A DNA stretch of 64,000 nt from Paraburkholderia phytofirmans PsJN (GTDB lineage: Bacteria > Pseudomonadota > Gammaproteobacteria > Burkholderiales > Burkholderiaceae), in contig NC_010676.1 of NCBI RefSeq assembly GCF_000020125.1, positions 2,480,001 through 2,544,000 on the forward strand. Direction: 5' to 3'. Under the pieces are notes generated by a model, which was not told the origin of the DNA, did no database searches, and worked only from the letters and a program-made list of their open reading frames with translations. Both the position numbers and the translations under genes were made by a program. Below, in pieces: positions 18,948-27,494 of the stretch; position 1 is the first letter of the stretch; every line of letters starts with the position of its first letter.

Positions 18948-21521
18948 TCAATCACTCACAGCGTCCCCGTGATCGCCACGCGCTTTGGCTGAAGCGAAAA
19001 AGGTCTGCAGCGCGGGGGCCGAATGGTCGCTCAACGAGCAGATTCGCGCCAGCCAGTCGGCTTCCGCGGGCCATTCCCCTTCCACCACGCGCGGATAGAT
19101 TTGCCGCACGAACTGATGCAACGCCTTTGCGCCGATATTGCCGCTGATGCCAAGCAGCACGTGCAAGGCGCCATGCGTCGATTCGAGGTCCCGGGCCGCC
19201 ACGCTTGCGGCGAGTTGCGCCACGGTCGAGCGAATCTGTTCGATGCCGTTGAGGAACGTCTGATCCAGCAAATCGAGCGCCACCAGTTCCTCGAGGTGTT
19301 TCTCGTCGAGCAACGGGCCTTCCTTGATCGGCTCCGGCTTGCCGGCTTGCACGGCGGGTGTCTGTGCCGGTTCCGCCCTGACCGGCGCATGCGACACACG
19401 TTGCTGGGCAAACTGTCTTGCAAGAGACGCATAGAGGGCGCCGATCTGCACGGGCTTGATCATGACCTCGTTCATGCCCGCGGCGAGACATGCCTGCACG
19501 GCTTTCATGTCGGATTGGCCGGTCAATGCAACGACGGGGATCCGGGAATATGCGTCGGCACGCGCGCGGATCAACGCAGTCGTTTCCACGCCGCCCATTC
19601 CGGGCATGTTCATGTCCATCACGATGGCATCGACGGCGGCGTCCTCCTCCAGCCTCGCCAGCACGGCCGGCCCATGCTCGGCCTCGACGACGCGCGCGCC
19701 GCATCGTTCCAGATAACCTTTGGCAATCCGCCTGCTGTAGGTGTCGTCGTCCGCGACCAGTATCGTTTTGCCGGCGAATCCGTCGAATGGATGGCTGTGA
19801 TCGTGCCGATTGCCGCTTTCGAAGAGCGTCTTGAGCGCGGTGATCAATTCCACCGGGCTGACGGATTTGCTGATCATGTCGTCCATGCCGGCACGCCGGG
19901 CGAGTACCCGCGTCACATTGACCGGCTCCGTCGTGAAGGCGGCGATCAGCACGTTCCGGTTCGGGTGTTGATGGTCGGCGCGGATCGTCTCGGCGGCGGT
20001 GTAGCCGTCCATGACCGGCATATTGATGTCCATTAGCACGAGGTCGTGCGGCGTCGACTGTCGAAGCAACCTCAATGCCGCCTCGCCGTTTTCCGCCTCG
20101 CTCACCTCGGCGCCGACCTTCGACAACGCGCGGCGGCTTCGCGCCCGCTGGGCGGCATCGTCGTCCACGATCAGAATGCGTTTGCCGGCGAAAAAAGGCG
20201 TGGCCCGCTCGAAAACCTTCTGCTCATGCTCCGCCACCTCGCGGCTGGAAACGGCGGGGAATTGCAGCGTGAACTGCGTAAATTTTCCGACTTCCGAGCG
20301 ACAGGCAATCGTGCCGCCGAACGCCCGCATGGCGCGCTGGCAATAGGCAAGGCCGAGCCCCGTCCCCGCCGAATTGCCCGCGGTACGGAACGGCTCGAAC
20401 AGATGCGGCAGGAGGTCGGCCGCGATGCCGGGGCCGGTATCGTGAACCAGCACCGTCTGGCGGTCGATGGTCAATGTCAGCGTTGCCAGAGGATGCGCGG
20501 CGATGTGATGCAGCGCGTTCTTGATCAGATTGAACAGCGTGAACAGATAGACGGTCTCGTCGACCTTAAAGATGAAGTCTTCCAGCACCGCGAGCCGGAC
20601 TTTGGCGCGCTCCTTCTGATCGCCGAAACCGTATTCGTCCAGCGCTTTACGCGTGGTGGCCGCCGCGCTCAGATAGGTGAAATGATCCGCGCGGATGGGT
20701 TTCGCGCTGACTTCATCGAGCGTCATGGCGATGATGCGCAGGCCCCGGTCAATCGACAATTGGCCGTGGGCGAGATGCCGGTAAAGCAACGCCGCCCTGT
20801 CATGCGACATGGCCGGCGACGGGTTGGCGTCCGTCACCGCGGGCAGCGCCTCTTCCATGCGATCCAGCACGTGCCTCAGCTGGCTGAGAGGATTGCGCAT
20901 TTCATGAGCGATCGAACCGGCGAGCGCACGAAATGCCACGTTTTTTGCCTGCGCGACGATGCCCTTGAGGTTGCTGTAACTGAACGTAAGGCCGGCGAAA
21001 ATAGCGAATGTAAAAACCGGCAGATACGTGTAGAGAAATAACTGTCCGTCCACGTGGAGGGATTGCGGAATGACGACCCTGGCGCATAAAACGGCAAGAC
21101 CCATCCCCAGAATCAGATTGAGTGCTAACGCAACGACCGACGGAAAGATGGCGATGAGGAAAAACACCATGCCCAGCTCGGCCATCGACCAGAGCATCGA
21201 ATAGTGACCGGCGATCAGGTAGTAAGTGAAAAAGAACGGTAGCGTATAAGCTACCGTTACGAAGTAGTACCACGGCAGGAAGCGCACGACCGGAGCGGGC
21301 CAGAAACGGCGCAATAGCAGCAGCGCACAGGCGGCTGTACCGAAAGCGCGCATCAGCAGGCTTTCGTTGGGTTGAGGGTCGATATACGTCCACCACGCCC
21401 AGTACAGCGGATGTCCGATCGTACCGATTACGCCAACAGCCAGCACGCTGTAGTCCGACACCTTGGCCGAGTCATAAACCAGTCGGTTGAGGTAACGGAT
21501 GCTCGTTGAAATGGCTCTCAT
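18948..21521 (-). CDS. CqsS/PhcS-like membrane hybrid histidine kinase with two receivers and an Hpt-like domain
   Basis: An 857-residue kinase. Residues 1-190 hold about six membrane helices that resemble the sensory part of quorum-sensing kinases CqsS, LqsS and PhcS, notably the pattern GHPLYWAWW, DPQPNESLLMRAF, and WYYFVTVAYTLPFFFTYYLI. The HisKA box follows with His206 (GSIAHEMRNPLSQL), then HATPase (DTGPGI, GTGLGLAYCQRAM), a first receiver (ILIVDDD, LVLMDINMP), a second receiver (ILVADDD, AIVMDMNMPGMGG) and an Hpt-like domain (ALHVLLGISGNIGA). It starts 28 bases after the ketosynthase gene at 21550-22587. Sensing a small diffusible molecule is inferred from the membrane domain; the ligand is unknown. 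Confidence 0.88.
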   Translation of the reverse strand: MRAISTSIRYLNRLVYDSAKVSDYSVLAVGVIGTIGHPLYWAWWTYIDPQPNESLLMRAFGTAACALLLLRRFWPAPVVRFLPWYYFVTVAYTLPFFFTYYLIAGHYSMLWSMAELGMVFFLIAIFPSVVALALNLILGMGLAVLCARVVIPQSLHVDGQLFLYTYLPVFTFAIFAGLTFSYSNLKGIVAQAKNVAFRALAGSIAHEMRNPLSQLRHVLDRMEEALPAVTDANPSPAMSHDRAALLYRHLAHGQLSIDRGLRIIAMTLDEVSAKPIRADHFTYLSAAATTRKALDEYGFGDQKERAKVRLAVLEDFIFKVDETVYLFTLFNLIKNALHHIAAHPLATLTLTIDRQTVLVHDTGPGIAADLLPHLFEPFRTAGNSAGTGLGLAYCQRAMRAFGGTIACRSEVGKFTQFTLQFPAVSSREVAEHEQKVFERATPFFAGKRILIVDDDAAQRARSRRALSKVGAEVSEAENGEAALRLLRQSTPHDLVLMDINMPVMDGYTAAETIRADHQHPNRNVLIAAFTTEPVNVTRVLARRAGMDDMISKSVSPVELITALKTLFESGNRHDHSHPFDGFAGKTILVADDDTYSRRIAKGYLERCGARVVEAEHGPAVLARLEEDAAVDAIVMDMNMPGMGGVETTALIRARADAYSRIPVVALTGQSDMKAVQACLAAGMNEVMIKPVQIGALYASLARQFAQQRVSHAPVRAEPAQTPAVQAGKPEPIKEGPLLDEKHLEELVALDLLDQTFLNGIEQIRSTVAQLAASVAARDLESTHGALHVLLGISGNIGAKALHQFVRQIYPRVVEGEWPAEADWLARICSLSDHSAPALQTFFASAKARGDHGDAVSD

Positions 21522-21549
21522 GTCGTGCTTTATCTTGACTTATCCAGCC

Positions 21550-22587
21550 TCAGAATCTGAAGCTGCTGACGTTGAACGACATGCCGGCGCTGCCGACCCA
21601 GCACAGCACTCTGTCGCCTCTCTTCAACCGCCCGCCGTCTTTCGCCAGTGAAATGGCCGCCGGAATCGAAGCCGAGACGAGGTTTCCCGTCTCCGGATAG
21701 ATGTGATACATCTTGTCGTCGATCCCTACCTTGGCGCCGTAACCCTGCCACGCAGCCTTGGAGGATGCGTGGGTGAAGACGATGTCGATGTCTTTCTTGG
21801 GAACTGGCAGTTTAGTCAATACCGCGGACAGTTCGTCCGAATTCTTGTGAAGCTCATGGCCGAATGATGTGAAACGCATGTCGCCGTTCTTGCCGATCCG
21901 TTCGGTCGGGTGGCAATACCCTTCGTAGCCGGGGATTGGAATGGTGCACAGGTCCGACACTGCCGGCTTCGCGCGGAACGCAAAGGTGAAGTTATCCGGC
22001 TCTTTGGCGACGAGCAAGGTAGCGGTCGCCGCCTCGCCAATCGTAAACGACGGCAACGTATATTCGATTTGAGCCTGGCTCTTCAACGCGAAATTCCCCG
22101 GATAGAGTGGGCCGCCCGCAAGCATATTGAACTCGGCGTTCACAATCATAGCGTTTCTGTACTGACCCGACTTGAAAAGGCTGTCGATGATCGCCATGGC
22201 CCGGGTCCAGCTCATGCAGGCGTCGACCACGTCGAAACACTCGGCGTTCACGAAGCCTAGCGTGCTGGCCATCATGTGGCTGTTGCCGGGCTCAAGAAAC
22301 CCTCGTCCAATACCGACGTAAATAAACAGCTCGATATGTTCCGGCTTCAGATACGTTTCCGATAACGCCTTGCGCGTCGCCATGGCGACGTGATCGATAG
22401 GCGACTCGTGGCTTTCACACCAGCGCCGGTTGACCAGTCCGCTTCTGTCGAGCAAGGTCTTGATGGTGCGCATCCCCCGGTCGATGTCGCCCTCGTAATC
22501 CTTGGAATGGAATCGAATCATATCGATCACTTCTTCGTTCGTAACGATCCTGGAGGGCAAGCTGACGGCTACGTCTTTAATAAGCAT
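21550..22587 (-). CDS. KAS III-like ketosynthase (FabH/PqsD superfamily), possible signal synthase
   Basis: A 345-residue thiolase-fold condensing enzyme. The catalytic triad is intact: Cys124 (DVVDACMSW), His273 (VFTHASSK) and Asn302 (TGNLVSASIP). It is more divergent than housekeeping FabH: the usual PHQAN motif is THASS and no other fatty-acid gene is near. Such stand-alone KAS III proteins can make secondary metabolites or signals, for example PqsD and PpyS. It forms an apparent operon with the CqsS-like kinase downstream. The reaction product is unknown; signal synthesis is inferred from this pairing. An upstream 20-base dyad lies at 22649. Confidence 0.82.
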   Translation of the reverse strand: MLIKDVAVSLPSRIVTNEEVIDMIRFHSKDYEGDIDRGMRTIKTLLDRSGLVNRRWCESHESPIDHVAMATRKALSETYLKPEHIELFIYVGIGRGFLEPGNSHMMASTLGFVNAECFDVVDACMSWTRAMAIIDSLFKSGQYRNAMIVNAEFNMLAGGPLYPGNFALKSQAQIEYTLPSFTIGEAATATLLVAKEPDNFTFAFRAKPAVSDLCTIPIPGYEGYCHPTERIGKNGDMRFTSFGHELHKNSDELSAVLTKLPVPKKDIDIVFTHASSKAAWQGYGAKVGIDDKMYHIYPETGNLVSASIPAAISLAKDGGRLKRGDRVLCWVGSAGMSFNVSSFRF

Positions 22588-24445: not shown

Positions 24446-25516
24446 ATGGATTTGGGACATACTCTGCAGCGCAGTTCGCCGCACAGTGCCGCGCCGATGC
24501 AAACGAACGCTCTGACTCGCATCGACATTGCGCTGTTCAACGGATTCGCCTTGCCTACGGTCGCCGCACTCATCGAGATTTTCCAGAGGGCTAACTCGCT
24601 AGTCGCCGCACCGCGCTCGGGCCGCGCACGTTACGACGTCTCGCTGCTTTCCGCCGCGGGCGGACGCATCGCCAGTTCGTCATCGGTCTTTGTCTGGACC
24701 GACGACGTCCAGTCGCATCGAGGCACCAACGAGCCACACCTGTTGTTCATTGCAGGCGGCGCCGGCGTGCAGCAGGCATGCCGCGATGAGCGATTGAGCG
24801 AGTGGCTTCGCCGCAGGCATCCGTTCAGCGAGATCGTGCATCCGATCGCGGAAGGCCAACTGCTGCTTCAGGCCGCCGGGCTGCCCAGCCGCTACTGCCC
24901 GCTTCTCTATGGAGACAACGAAGCACCCGGCTTGCATCCGGCGCGGTTGACAGAAGCGCCGGGCGCCGTATCGACCGCGCTGCGTATCGTCGAAGAGGAT
25001 CTCGGTGCCGATCTCGCGCAGCGGGTTGCCGAATCGATCGCGCCGCAAACCAGAACGCCTTTCAGCTCGTCGATCACGCCCGCCGTGGCGCCCCAGATCA
25101 GCGATAAGATCCTCGCGTCGGCACGCTGGCTGGAAGCGAACGTCGACCGGCCCGTCTCGATCGACGACGCGGCCCAGGTCGCAGCGATGAGCGAGCGCAA
25201 CTTCCTGCGCCGCTTCAAGAGCGAGATCGGCATGACGCCCTCCGACTATCTGCTTCGCGCACGCCTGAATATGAGTTGCCGGATGCTGGTGGAATCGCGG
25301 CTGCCCGTCGACAAGATCGCGCGCCGCTGCGGCATCGGCAGCGGCGGCCAGTTGTCGAAGTTGTTCAGAAAATATCTGGAGACGACGCCGACGGACTATC
25401 GAACGCGCAACCATGTGGCACAGCAGAAACCAAACGCACAGGTACGGGATCAACGGCGCGAGTTCGATCCAGGTGTTCTGATCGAAGCCGACTACGCGAC
25501 TCAAGTCGAAGCGTAA
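24446..25516 (+). CDS. GlxA-type AraC-family transcriptional regulator (A)
   Basis: A 356-residue regulator. Residues 20-190 form a DJ-1/PfpI-like domain (IDIALFNGFALPTVAALIEIFQRAN; LLSAAGGRIASSSSVFVWTD; LLFIAGGAGVQQACRDERL), and residues 225-330 carry two AraC helix-turn-helix motifs (ISIDDAAQVAAMSERNFLRRFKSEIGMTP; VDKIARRCGIGSGGQLSKLFRKYLETTPTDYR). The DJ-1 domain lacks an obvious catalytic cysteine and probably senses a ligand. It is closely related to the proteins at 26499-27494 and 52931-53923, and more distantly to 31073-32074. Location beside the polysaccharide cluster suggests that it controls surface polymer genes; this is inference. Confidence 0.85.
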   Translation: MDLGHTLQRSSPHSAAPMQTNALTRIDIALFNGFALPTVAALIEIFQRANSLVAAPRSGRARYDVSLLSAAGGRIASSSSVFVWTDDVQSHRGTNEPHLLFIAGGAGVQQACRDERLSEWLRRRHPFSEIVHPIAEGQLLLQAAGLPSRYCPLLYGDNEAPGLHPARLTEAPGAVSTALRIVEEDLGADLAQRVAESIAPQTRTPFSSSITPAVAPQISDKILASARWLEANVDRPVSIDDAAQVAAMSERNFLRRFKSEIGMTPSDYLLRARLNMSCRMLVESRLPVDKIARRCGIGSGGQLSKLFRKYLETTPTDYRTRNHVAQQKPNAQVRDQRREFDPGVLIEADYATQVEA

Positions 25517-26498: not shown

Positions 26499-27494
26499 AT
26501 GGAGTTTCTTTGCAACGTGAAGCATAAGAATGCACTTCAAGCACCCGCTTTGCCACAGACCGCCAGCGTAAACCATATCGGTATTGCATTGTTCAATGGA
26601 TTTGCTCTACCCGATGTGGCTTCCATCATTGAGATATTCCAATCGGCGAATGCCCTGAGCGACACAGGCGAACCCCGTCGAACTCGCTATGAGGTCTCGC
26701 TATTGTCGGCATCCGGCGGGCGTATTGCGAGTTCTTCTTCGGTGTTCGTGTGGACCGACAGCGTCGAATCGCGCGGGAACGGGGACAACTTCCGCGCGCT
26801 TTTCATTGCAGGCGGCACCGGCGCAACGAACGCGTTCCTTGACGATCGTCTGATCGTATGGCTTCGGCAGGCTTTTCCGAAAAGCGGCATGGTCCATGCA
26901 ATCGCCGAGGGACGCCTGATGCTCGAAGCGGCGGGTTTCTCGAATGCCTACAGTGCGCGCATCGAGAACGACCGTCACGCACGAAACGCATTCCCTTCCC
27001 GATCTCTTGTGGACTCGCCCAGCCCGCTGCGAACCGCCTTGCGCATCGTTGGCGACGATCTTGGACCGGAAGTCGCGCAGCAGGTCGCCGATTGGGTTGC
27101 GCCTCAAGGCGAAACGCAATTCAGCACCATCCTGCGTAGCAAAACGGCATCGCATATCAGCGATAAGATCCAGGCGTCCGCGCAATGGCTCGAGGCCAAC
27201 GGCGCACGCCCGATATCGATCGACGACGCCGCACAGATCGCGGCAATGAGCGAACGGAATTTCCTGCGGCGCTTCAAGAGCGAAATGGGTGTGACTCCGT
27301 CGGAATATCTGCTCTATGTGCGTCTCGACATGAGCTGCCGCCTTCTCGCCAAAACAAGCCTGCCCGTCGACAAGATCGCGCGTCGCTGCGGCATCGGCAG
27401 TGGCGGGAGGCTCGCGAAGCTGTTTCGCAAGCACCTGCTCACCACGCCCACGGAGTATCGAATCAGCAAACAAGGTTCGCGCAGAGCATCGTAA
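26499..27494 (+). CDS. GlxA-type AraC-family transcriptional regulator (B)
   Basis: A 331-residue regulator with an N-terminal DJ-1/PfpI-like domain (IGIALFNGFALPDVASIIEIFQSAN; LLSASGGRIASSSSVFVWTD; ALFIAGGTGATNAF) and a C-terminal pair of AraC helix-turn-helix motifs (ISIDDAAQIAAMSERNFLRRFKSEMG; VDKIARRCGIGSGGRLAKLFRKHLLTTPTEYR). It lies 58 bases from the convergent end of rfbD. It is a member of the same regulator group as A and C and shares their upstream element, but at DNA level it has diverged further. It probably regulates nearby surface-polysaccharide genes or its paralogues. Confidence 0.85.
   Translation: MEFLCNVKHKNALQAPALPQTASVNHIGIALFNGFALPDVASIIEIFQSANALSDTGEPRRTRYEVSLLSASGGRIASSSSVFVWTDSVESRGNGDNFRALFIAGGTGATNAFLDDRLIVWLRQAFPKSGMVHAIAEGRLMLEAAGFSNAYSARIENDRHARNAFPSRSLVDSPSPLRTALRIVGDDLGPEVAQQVADWVAPQGETQFSTILRSKTASHISDKIQASAQWLEANGARPISIDDAAQIAAMSERNFLRRFKSEMGVTPSEYLLYVRLDMSCRLLAKTSLPVDKIARRCGIGSGGRLAKLFRKHLLTTPTEYRISKQGSRRAS

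Follow-up and report, generated by a model that had tools for sequence, protein, structure and literature searches.

What does a stand-alone condensing enzyme make when its gene lies directly ahead of a gene for a receptor-like kinase? This question is raised by a 64,000-nucleotide stretch of the Paraburkholderia phytofirmans PsJN genome (8.2 Mb on three contigs), hereafter the window (C1:2480001-2544000), in which a gene for a β-ketoacyl-acyl carrier protein synthase III (KAS III)-like protein is followed by one for a hybrid histidine kinase. We find that this pair is a variant of CqsS/LqsS-type signalling, apparently undescribed in the open-access literature searched. Our preferred reading, to which we give a probability of about two in three, is a two-gene autoinducer module in which an OleA-like KAS would make a lipid signal, the adjacent CqsS/LqsS-type kinase would sense it, and a PhcR-type regulator would receive the phosphate. 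The elements of the pair are as follows.

21550..22587, minus strand: KAS III/OleA-like condensing enzyme, 345 residues, with Cys124, His273, Asn302 and Glu99-Pro100
21522..21549, minus strand: 28-bp spacer from the stop codon of the KAS gene to the ATG of the kinase gene (24-42 bp in the relatives examined)
18948..21521, minus strand: hybrid histidine kinase, 857 residues, with a CqsS/LqsS-type sensor
20961..21521, minus strand: membrane sensor domain, residues 1-187, 23.5% identical to that of the kinase's own paralogue
20232..20960, minus strand: dimerization/histidine phosphotransfer and catalytic (DHp/CA) domains, residues 188-430 (SIAHEMRNPL; His206), 76.5% identical to those of the paralogue
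19827..20180, minus strand: receiver 1, residues 448-565 (Pfam)
19407..19766, minus strand: receiver 2, residues 586-705 (Pfam)
19002..19286, minus strand: histidine phosphotransfer (Hpt)-like region, residues 746-840, with His787

Architecture and conservation of the pair

The KAS gene is upstream and the kinase gene downstream on the same strand, and the positions, protein lengths and 28-bp spacing given in a preliminary description of this locus all hold. The 345-residue protein carries the Pfam domains ACP_syn_III and ACP_syn_III_C, and the kinase carries HATPase_c and two receivers. The preliminary description had also proposed a downstream Hpt-like domain; the receivers are borne out by Pfam, while the Hpt-like part of the window kinase gives no Pfam match at E ≤ 1e-3 and that of its paralogue matches at E 2.1e-4, below the curated cut-off. 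Precomputed PF01627 annotation is found on 7 of 48 kinase relatives, and all 12 kinases of alignment A1 have His787. The six membrane helices described earlier for the sensor are not confirmed by a simple hydropathy scan of the kinase: ahead of residue 250, three segments exceed 1.4, one of which could hold two helices. Read by eye, the unit ends with the pair, with no further enzyme or transporter gene after it.

A pattern scan of GTDB species genomes yielded 27 KAS loci, and in all 24 of those labelled Paraburkholderia or Burkholderia, as all close relatives by the window KAS are, a kinase relative lies directly downstream of the KAS gene, with flanking genes that mostly differ from locus to locus. 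Within these 24 there are decaying copies: the kinase of L006 is split over two frames, and both genes of L027 are damaged; these two broken kinases were excluded from the region identities calculated over 22 loci. No kinase relative is directly downstream in the Amycolatopsis, Chlorogloeopsis and Lautropia loci (KAS 43-48% identical). In the Burkholderiaceae sample the KAS is matched at E ≤ 1e-60 in 17 of 299 genomes, in 13 of which it is 81-100% identical (self included), and in 13 of these 13 the sensor follows 24-42 bp downstream; the 24-locus and 13-genome counts overlap and are not independent, at least 11 of the 13 genomes being named loci. The pairing is beyond chance, and the conserved adjacency on which the preliminary description had staked its proposal extends past this strain.

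The close pair was observed, among the loci read, solely in Paraburkholderia- or Burkholderia-labelled genomes. Wider searches recovered the KAS in 3 of 369 genomes of the class (E ≤ 1e-60) and 2 of 399 of the order (E ≤ 1e-90), self included in each case, and in 1 of 259 of the phylum (E ≤ 1e-60), self only. Five distant family matches are 38-42% identical, of which L059-L062 lie within seemingly fatty-acid/polyketide-type clusters (by eye), while the fifth, L058, has no clear setting. A sensor beside the KAS was not found in the distant loci read (L067, L068 on a 4.3-kb contig, and L182). The first of these (L067:4946-13592) holds a row of genes with a LuxI-type synthase (PF00765), a DUF3419 gene, an acyl-CoA-dehydrogenase-like gene, an AMP-binding/carrier (FAAL-like) gene, a KAS 48-49% identical to that of the window, and an ABC1/class III aminotransferase fusion. 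Two metagenomic relatives, P0013 (KAS, 76%) and P0166 (kinase, sensor 53%), share the same longest contig figure, 21,623, which suggests that they may form a metagenomic pair.

The condensing enzyme resembles OleA

The Cys124-His273-Asn302 triad, described as intact from the outset, is present and conserved across the 44 rows of alignment A3, the window's own included (Cys 44/44, His 43/44, Asn 44/44). This triad and the fold fit OleA and are common to FabH as well. Glu99-Pro100, in contrast to these shared features, aligns with the Glu117-Pro general-base motif of OleA; it is found in 42 of the 44 members of A3, and none of the three further KAS III-like matches from this genome has it. The first 14 rows of a Foldseek search are OleA chains, the best fold match, and OleA is the joint best sequence match at about 22% identity; PqsD and PqsBC are also among the fold matches. 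Some databases name relatives of this protein "acyl-CoA:acyl-CoA alkyltransferase". The Glu-Pro motif is described as essential in Xanthomonas campestris OleA and the OleA mechanism as unique to OleA homologues (PMC7064751). Because the KAS is OleA-like in carrying Glu99-Pro100, non-decarboxylative acyl-acyl condensation appears likelier, on sequence, than ordinary KAS III chemistry. The enzyme thus resembles OleA of X. campestris, an acyl-CoA:acyl-CoA condensing thiolase, in fold, triad and general-base motif, and differs from it in its low identity and in having a receptor kinase as its partner. No ole operon was recognised around the pair among the window open reading frames (ORFs) at 14-28 kb, which were read by eye with no family search for oleB, oleC or oleD.

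A KAS III fold and triad would also suit an auxiliary FabH of fatty-acid synthesis that lies beside the kinase by accident. We regard this as very improbable, given a score of 71 bits against a cut-off of 292 for the curated FabH family, the OleA motif, the conserved pairing, and the presence of three other KAS III-like genes in the genome. On the score, the motif and these other genes, we reject a housekeeping FabH identity, part of an outcome on which the preliminary description would have fallen.

The sensor belongs by profile to the CqsS/LqsS superfamily

The sensor motifs noted previously (GHPLYW, PQPNES and YTLPFFFTYYL) are present and strongly conserved. A sensor profile aligns with the kinase beside the CqsA/LqsA-type synthase of locus L138 at an hhalign probability of 99.7%, and on this profile evidence the sensor belongs to the CqsS/LqsS superfamily, as first proposed; it is placed there via CqsA-linked sensors, not via sensors labelled CqsS or LqsS. 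The studied members of this superfamily are autoinducer receptors, and the known ligands of CqsS and LqsS are α-hydroxyketones and their amino relatives. Kinases of this kind appear in some databases as "CAI-1 autoinducer sensor kinase/phosphatase CqsS", a name whose implied ligand, CAI-1, is probably wrong here. The LuxN family scores the kinase at 267 bits against a cut-off of 1550, and its best stretch is in the transmitter (residues 189-555).

The kinship with PhcS that had also been suggested is not supported. The profile matches the genome's own methyltransferase-linked kinase, which is PhcS-like by architecture only and is the sole stand-in for PhcS, at an hhalign probability of 0.4%. 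At the locus of that kinase (L077:4285-8634, on C3 of the same genome) a gene that looks methyltransferase-like by eye stands in line with the kinase and receiver genes, in a phc-operon-like architecture.

As the preliminary description had it, neither known partner type is here: there is no match above 60 bits, in the window or in the 24 loci, to a CqsA/LqsA-family synthase or to the methyltransferase-like protein of L077, nor to an LqsR-type response regulator. CqsA/LqsA was not found in this genome, where the best hits are 26-28% identical.

Several enzyme types adjoin this sensor family

A search with a profile (A2) built from 11 sensors gave homologues in 67 of 299 Burkholderiaceae genomes and in 17 of 369 genomes of the class, self included. 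Among 36 Burkholderiaceae sensor loci read, 20 have a CqsA/LqsA-like pyridoxal phosphate (PLP) synthase, often together with an LqsR-like regulator, and 11 have a reductase-like enzyme of 379-475 residues directly upstream; neither is found in five (L108, L109, L118, L127 and L131). The three PLP enzymes scanned are all above the cut-off of NCBIfam NF005526 (α-hydroxyketone-type autoinducer synthase), and the CqsA-like neighbours are 46-73% identical, with that of L138 as query. With the KAS of the window pair counted, at least three enzyme types adjoin this sensor family in Burkholderiaceae.

Across the class, 18 regions gave 17 sensors, of which five have a CqsA-like neighbour, three a Haem_oxygenas_2 neighbour, and two share a YcaO gene; seven of the 17 have no clear synthase neighbour, and for L164 and L169 this reading did not recover the sensor ORF. 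The Haem_oxygenas_2 (PF14518) genes lie beside LqsS-type sensors in three families (L168:5746-7776, L171:4687-7533 and L178:4657-6596), and the YcaO gene is flanked by two LqsS-type sensor kinases (L180:249-4342). At L127:5239-8836, a 224-residue gene, GNAT acyltransferase-like by eye and giving no Pfam, NCBIfam or credible PDB match, is upstream of a 717-residue hybrid kinase with the same sensor type.

We placed these labels on a tree of 65 sensors, counting 45 labelled rows (25 CqsA, 11 reductase, 6 KAS and 3 haem-oxygenase-like) and leaving 20 unlabelled rows uncounted. The labels need three changes, the minimum, compared to a mean of 18.2 on shuffling, with 0 of 200 shuffles as low; the haem-oxygenase-linked sensors account for one change against the other labels. 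KAS-linked sensors and their unlabelled kin form one clade (support 100/99). The tree program warns that long branches meet, which makes it unsure whether KAS-type and reductase-type sensors are sister groups. A mirror-tree test of KAS against sensor was uninformative.

These data bear on two other accounts of the pair. One has the kinase eavesdropping on α-hydroxyketones from other species, with the KAS as an unrelated passenger, in keeping with a sensor homologous to CqsA/LqsA-linked ones in a genome without CqsA/LqsA, and with one genome (G164) of the 14 in the family with a KAS-type sensor, which has no KAS and, by eye, an ABC-transporter gene in its place. Adjacency in 24 of 24 loci at mostly different sites, and the single clade of KAS-linked sensors and their kin, speak against a passenger, and we consider this account quite improbable. 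The other is that the KAS makes a lipid that stays inside the cell or in its membrane, where the kinase monitors it as a feedback or envelope sensor, with no cell-cell signal. The sensor is embedded in the membrane, distant KAS relatives lie within biosynthetic clusters, and OleA products feed membrane hydrocarbons in other bacteria (PMC7064751). Set against this, the two-gene unit brings no extra enzyme or transporter gene (by eye), and the commonest neighbours of the sensor are CqsA/LqsA-like synthases (20 of the 36 loci). With the studied superfamily members being autoinducer receptors, we judge an intracellular role unlikely, and we retain the two-gene autoinducer module.

A paralogous kinase and possible exchange of the sensor

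A second kinase in the genome (C1:863788-866301) is 64% identical to the window kinase over residues 21-853, and a gene for a 408-residue protein lies 18 bp ahead of it.

L040:8783-12586 = C1:863782-867585: CqsS-type hybrid kinase with a reductase-like enzyme, the second putative pair of synthase and sensor in this genome

In the PDB, the profile of the 408-residue family matches cyanobacterial acyl-acyl carrier protein (ACP) reductase (6jzu/6jzq, E 2.4e-6) and one domain of a protein named "amino acid adenylation domain protein" (E 3.3e-13). With a structural model of the 408-residue protein (predicted local distance difference test 85.4), these two again fill Foldseek rows 1-17, the "TAD" domain of the carmabin pathway in rows 1-10 and cyanobacterial acyl-ACP reductase in rows 11-17 (E 5.6e-14 and weaker), and the next match is several orders of magnitude weaker. 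The enzyme is thus like the cyanobacterial reductase in family-profile and fold matches, and unlike it in scoring far under the NCBIfam acyl-ACP reductase cut-off (18 bits against 450) and in neighbouring a receptor kinase. Records from Oxalobacteraceae, Rickettsiales and Porticoccaceae contain further members of its family.

The two kinases differ sharply by region, with 23.5% identity in the sensor compared to 76.5% in DHp/CA, 73.7% in REC1, 78.3% in REC2 and 75.8% in the Hpt-like region, and DNA similarity between the two genes starts abruptly at nucleotide 595 and extends to 2540. Region trees of 29 kinases, classed by sensor, place KAS-type and reductase-type sensors about seven changes per column apart. 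In the DHp/CA tree, rooted at the midpoint, KAS-type kinases (97/95) branch among reductase-type ones, beside G270 (95/89); the receiver tree leaves the sensor classes unseparated, with three changes and G270 among the KAS-type rows. The simplest reading of these sequences is that the 5' part of the kinase gene was swapped; as the sensor is encoded at the end next to the synthase gene, a single crossover would carry the two together. Concerted evolution of transmitters within genomes is not supported overall, with DHp/CA 73.1% identical within and 72.3% across genomes (8 genomes); REC1 identities of 74-75% in this genome and in G201, compared to a cross-genome mean of 59.5%, run counter to that overall result.

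One regulator near one of two kinases

The commonest recurring neighbour of the pair is one convergent regulator gene, intact in 10 of the 24 loci and partial in one (L019). Its product has a REC-HisKA-HATPase architecture without a DNA-binding domain, as described for PhcR (PMC8578825). In the P. phytofirmans genome the sole full-length relative (66%) follows the paralogous kinase at a distance of 2.9 kb, two ORFs further downstream, and lies 1.64 Mb from the window pair along the contig; the unlinked regulator predicted earlier has in it a single candidate.

In all eight sampled genomes with both kinases, the PhcR-type regulator is near exactly one of them, the reductase-type in six and the KAS-type in two, and therefore one regulator probably serves both kinases. 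Its absence near the KAS pair was read, for five of the six, both from the stretch retrieved with the pair and over 17 kb (via L005, L008, L012, L013 and L026), and for the sixth, the P. phytofirmans genome, follows from a genome-wide regulator search. Six sampled genomes have a KAS-type and no reductase-type kinase; G254 is outside the regulator table, and in the five within it the regulator is intact in two, partial in one and not near in two. Where only the reductase-type sensor is present, the regulator is found in 5 of 8 genomes.

Elsewhere in the window, two similar and close regulators on the plus strand (24446-25516 and 26499-27494) have, by eye and with no search made, AraC-type C-terminal ends.

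Proposed circuit and relation to known systems

In the autoinducer module that we favour, the motif and fold of the KAS suggest that it would condense two acyl thioesters without decarboxylation to a β-keto acid, which may lose CO2 to give a dialkyl or methyl ketone. The lipid would leave the cell and be bound by the membrane sensor encoded by the next gene, and binding would set the balance of kinase and phosphatase activity. From the domain layout, phosphate would pass from His206 through the internal receivers to His787 of the Hpt-like region, and from there, judging by gene neighbourhood, to the PhcR-type REC-HisKA-HATPase regulator, sited here near the paralogous kinase. Since the paralogue has a similar transmitter, another sensor and an acyl-ACP-reductase-like enzyme ahead of it, two lipid signals would converge on one regulator, and the circuit would be density dependent. 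The two pairs are best read as parallel circuits, each with a lipid signal of its own, that arose when synthase and sensor were changed jointly while the output stayed common to both. The genome also has two LuxI-type synthases above cut-off, with no match in any of its 14 control genomes, and no CqsA/LqsA; the module would therefore be one of several circuits.

The pair is like CqsA/CqsS of Vibrio and LqsA/LqsS/LqsR of Legionella and many Proteobacteria in its homologous membrane sensor, in a synthase gene adjoining the kinase, and in the lipid-like ligand expected here too. It differs in that the synthase is an OleA-like KAS, not a PLP α-oxoamine synthase, in a regulator of PhcR rather than LqsR architecture, and in having two receivers and an Hpt-like region in one protein. 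With PhcB/PhcS/PhcR/PhcQ of Ralstonia and Cupriavidus it shares the regulator architecture (PMC8578825), and unlike that system it has no methyltransferase partner and a sensor domain not demonstrably related. As in PqsD/PqsBC and other signalling KAS III enzymes, a KAS III fold would make the signal. DarB is likewise a KAS III enzyme of a signalling pathway. The PqsD/PqsBC and DarB signals have cytosolic regulators of the LuxR/LysR type as their targets instead of a CqsS-type kinase.

The Lqs cluster is widespread in Alpha-, Beta- and Gammaproteobacteria (PMC10653808), and lqsA/lqsS homologues were noted in Burkholderia xenovorans in 2012 (PMC3376566); the available parts of these two papers contain no mention of KAS- or reductase-linked sensors. 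Titles and abstract openings listed in searches of an open-access library gave no description of KAS or reductase pairs, and no such system in Paraburkholderia was found in the literature searched.

More broadly, and tentatively, at somewhat less than even odds, CqsS/LqsS-type receptors may be a signal-inventing platform, in which the transmitter stays constant while a cassette ahead of it, made up of the synthase gene and the 5' end that encodes the sensor, is exchanged; a single output would in this way come to serve chemically new autoinducers. At least four synthase chemistries would then be in use (PLP α-oxoamine synthase, OleA-like KAS, acyl-ACP-reductase-like and haem-oxygenase-like), with a ketone or β-keto acid as the signal of the window pair. 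If true, the α-hydroxyketone receptor class would gain new lipid autoinducers, the products of an OleA-like condensing enzyme and of an acyl reductase. The origin of new signal-receptor pairs free of crosstalk would also have an explanation open to testing, in which enzyme and sensor change as a unit and the output is kept. Paraburkholderia are common soil and plant-associated bacteria; our findings suggest a chemical signal of a soil bacterium not yet described, and hint at one way in which bacteria may come by new signals, the joint exchange of enzyme and sensor.

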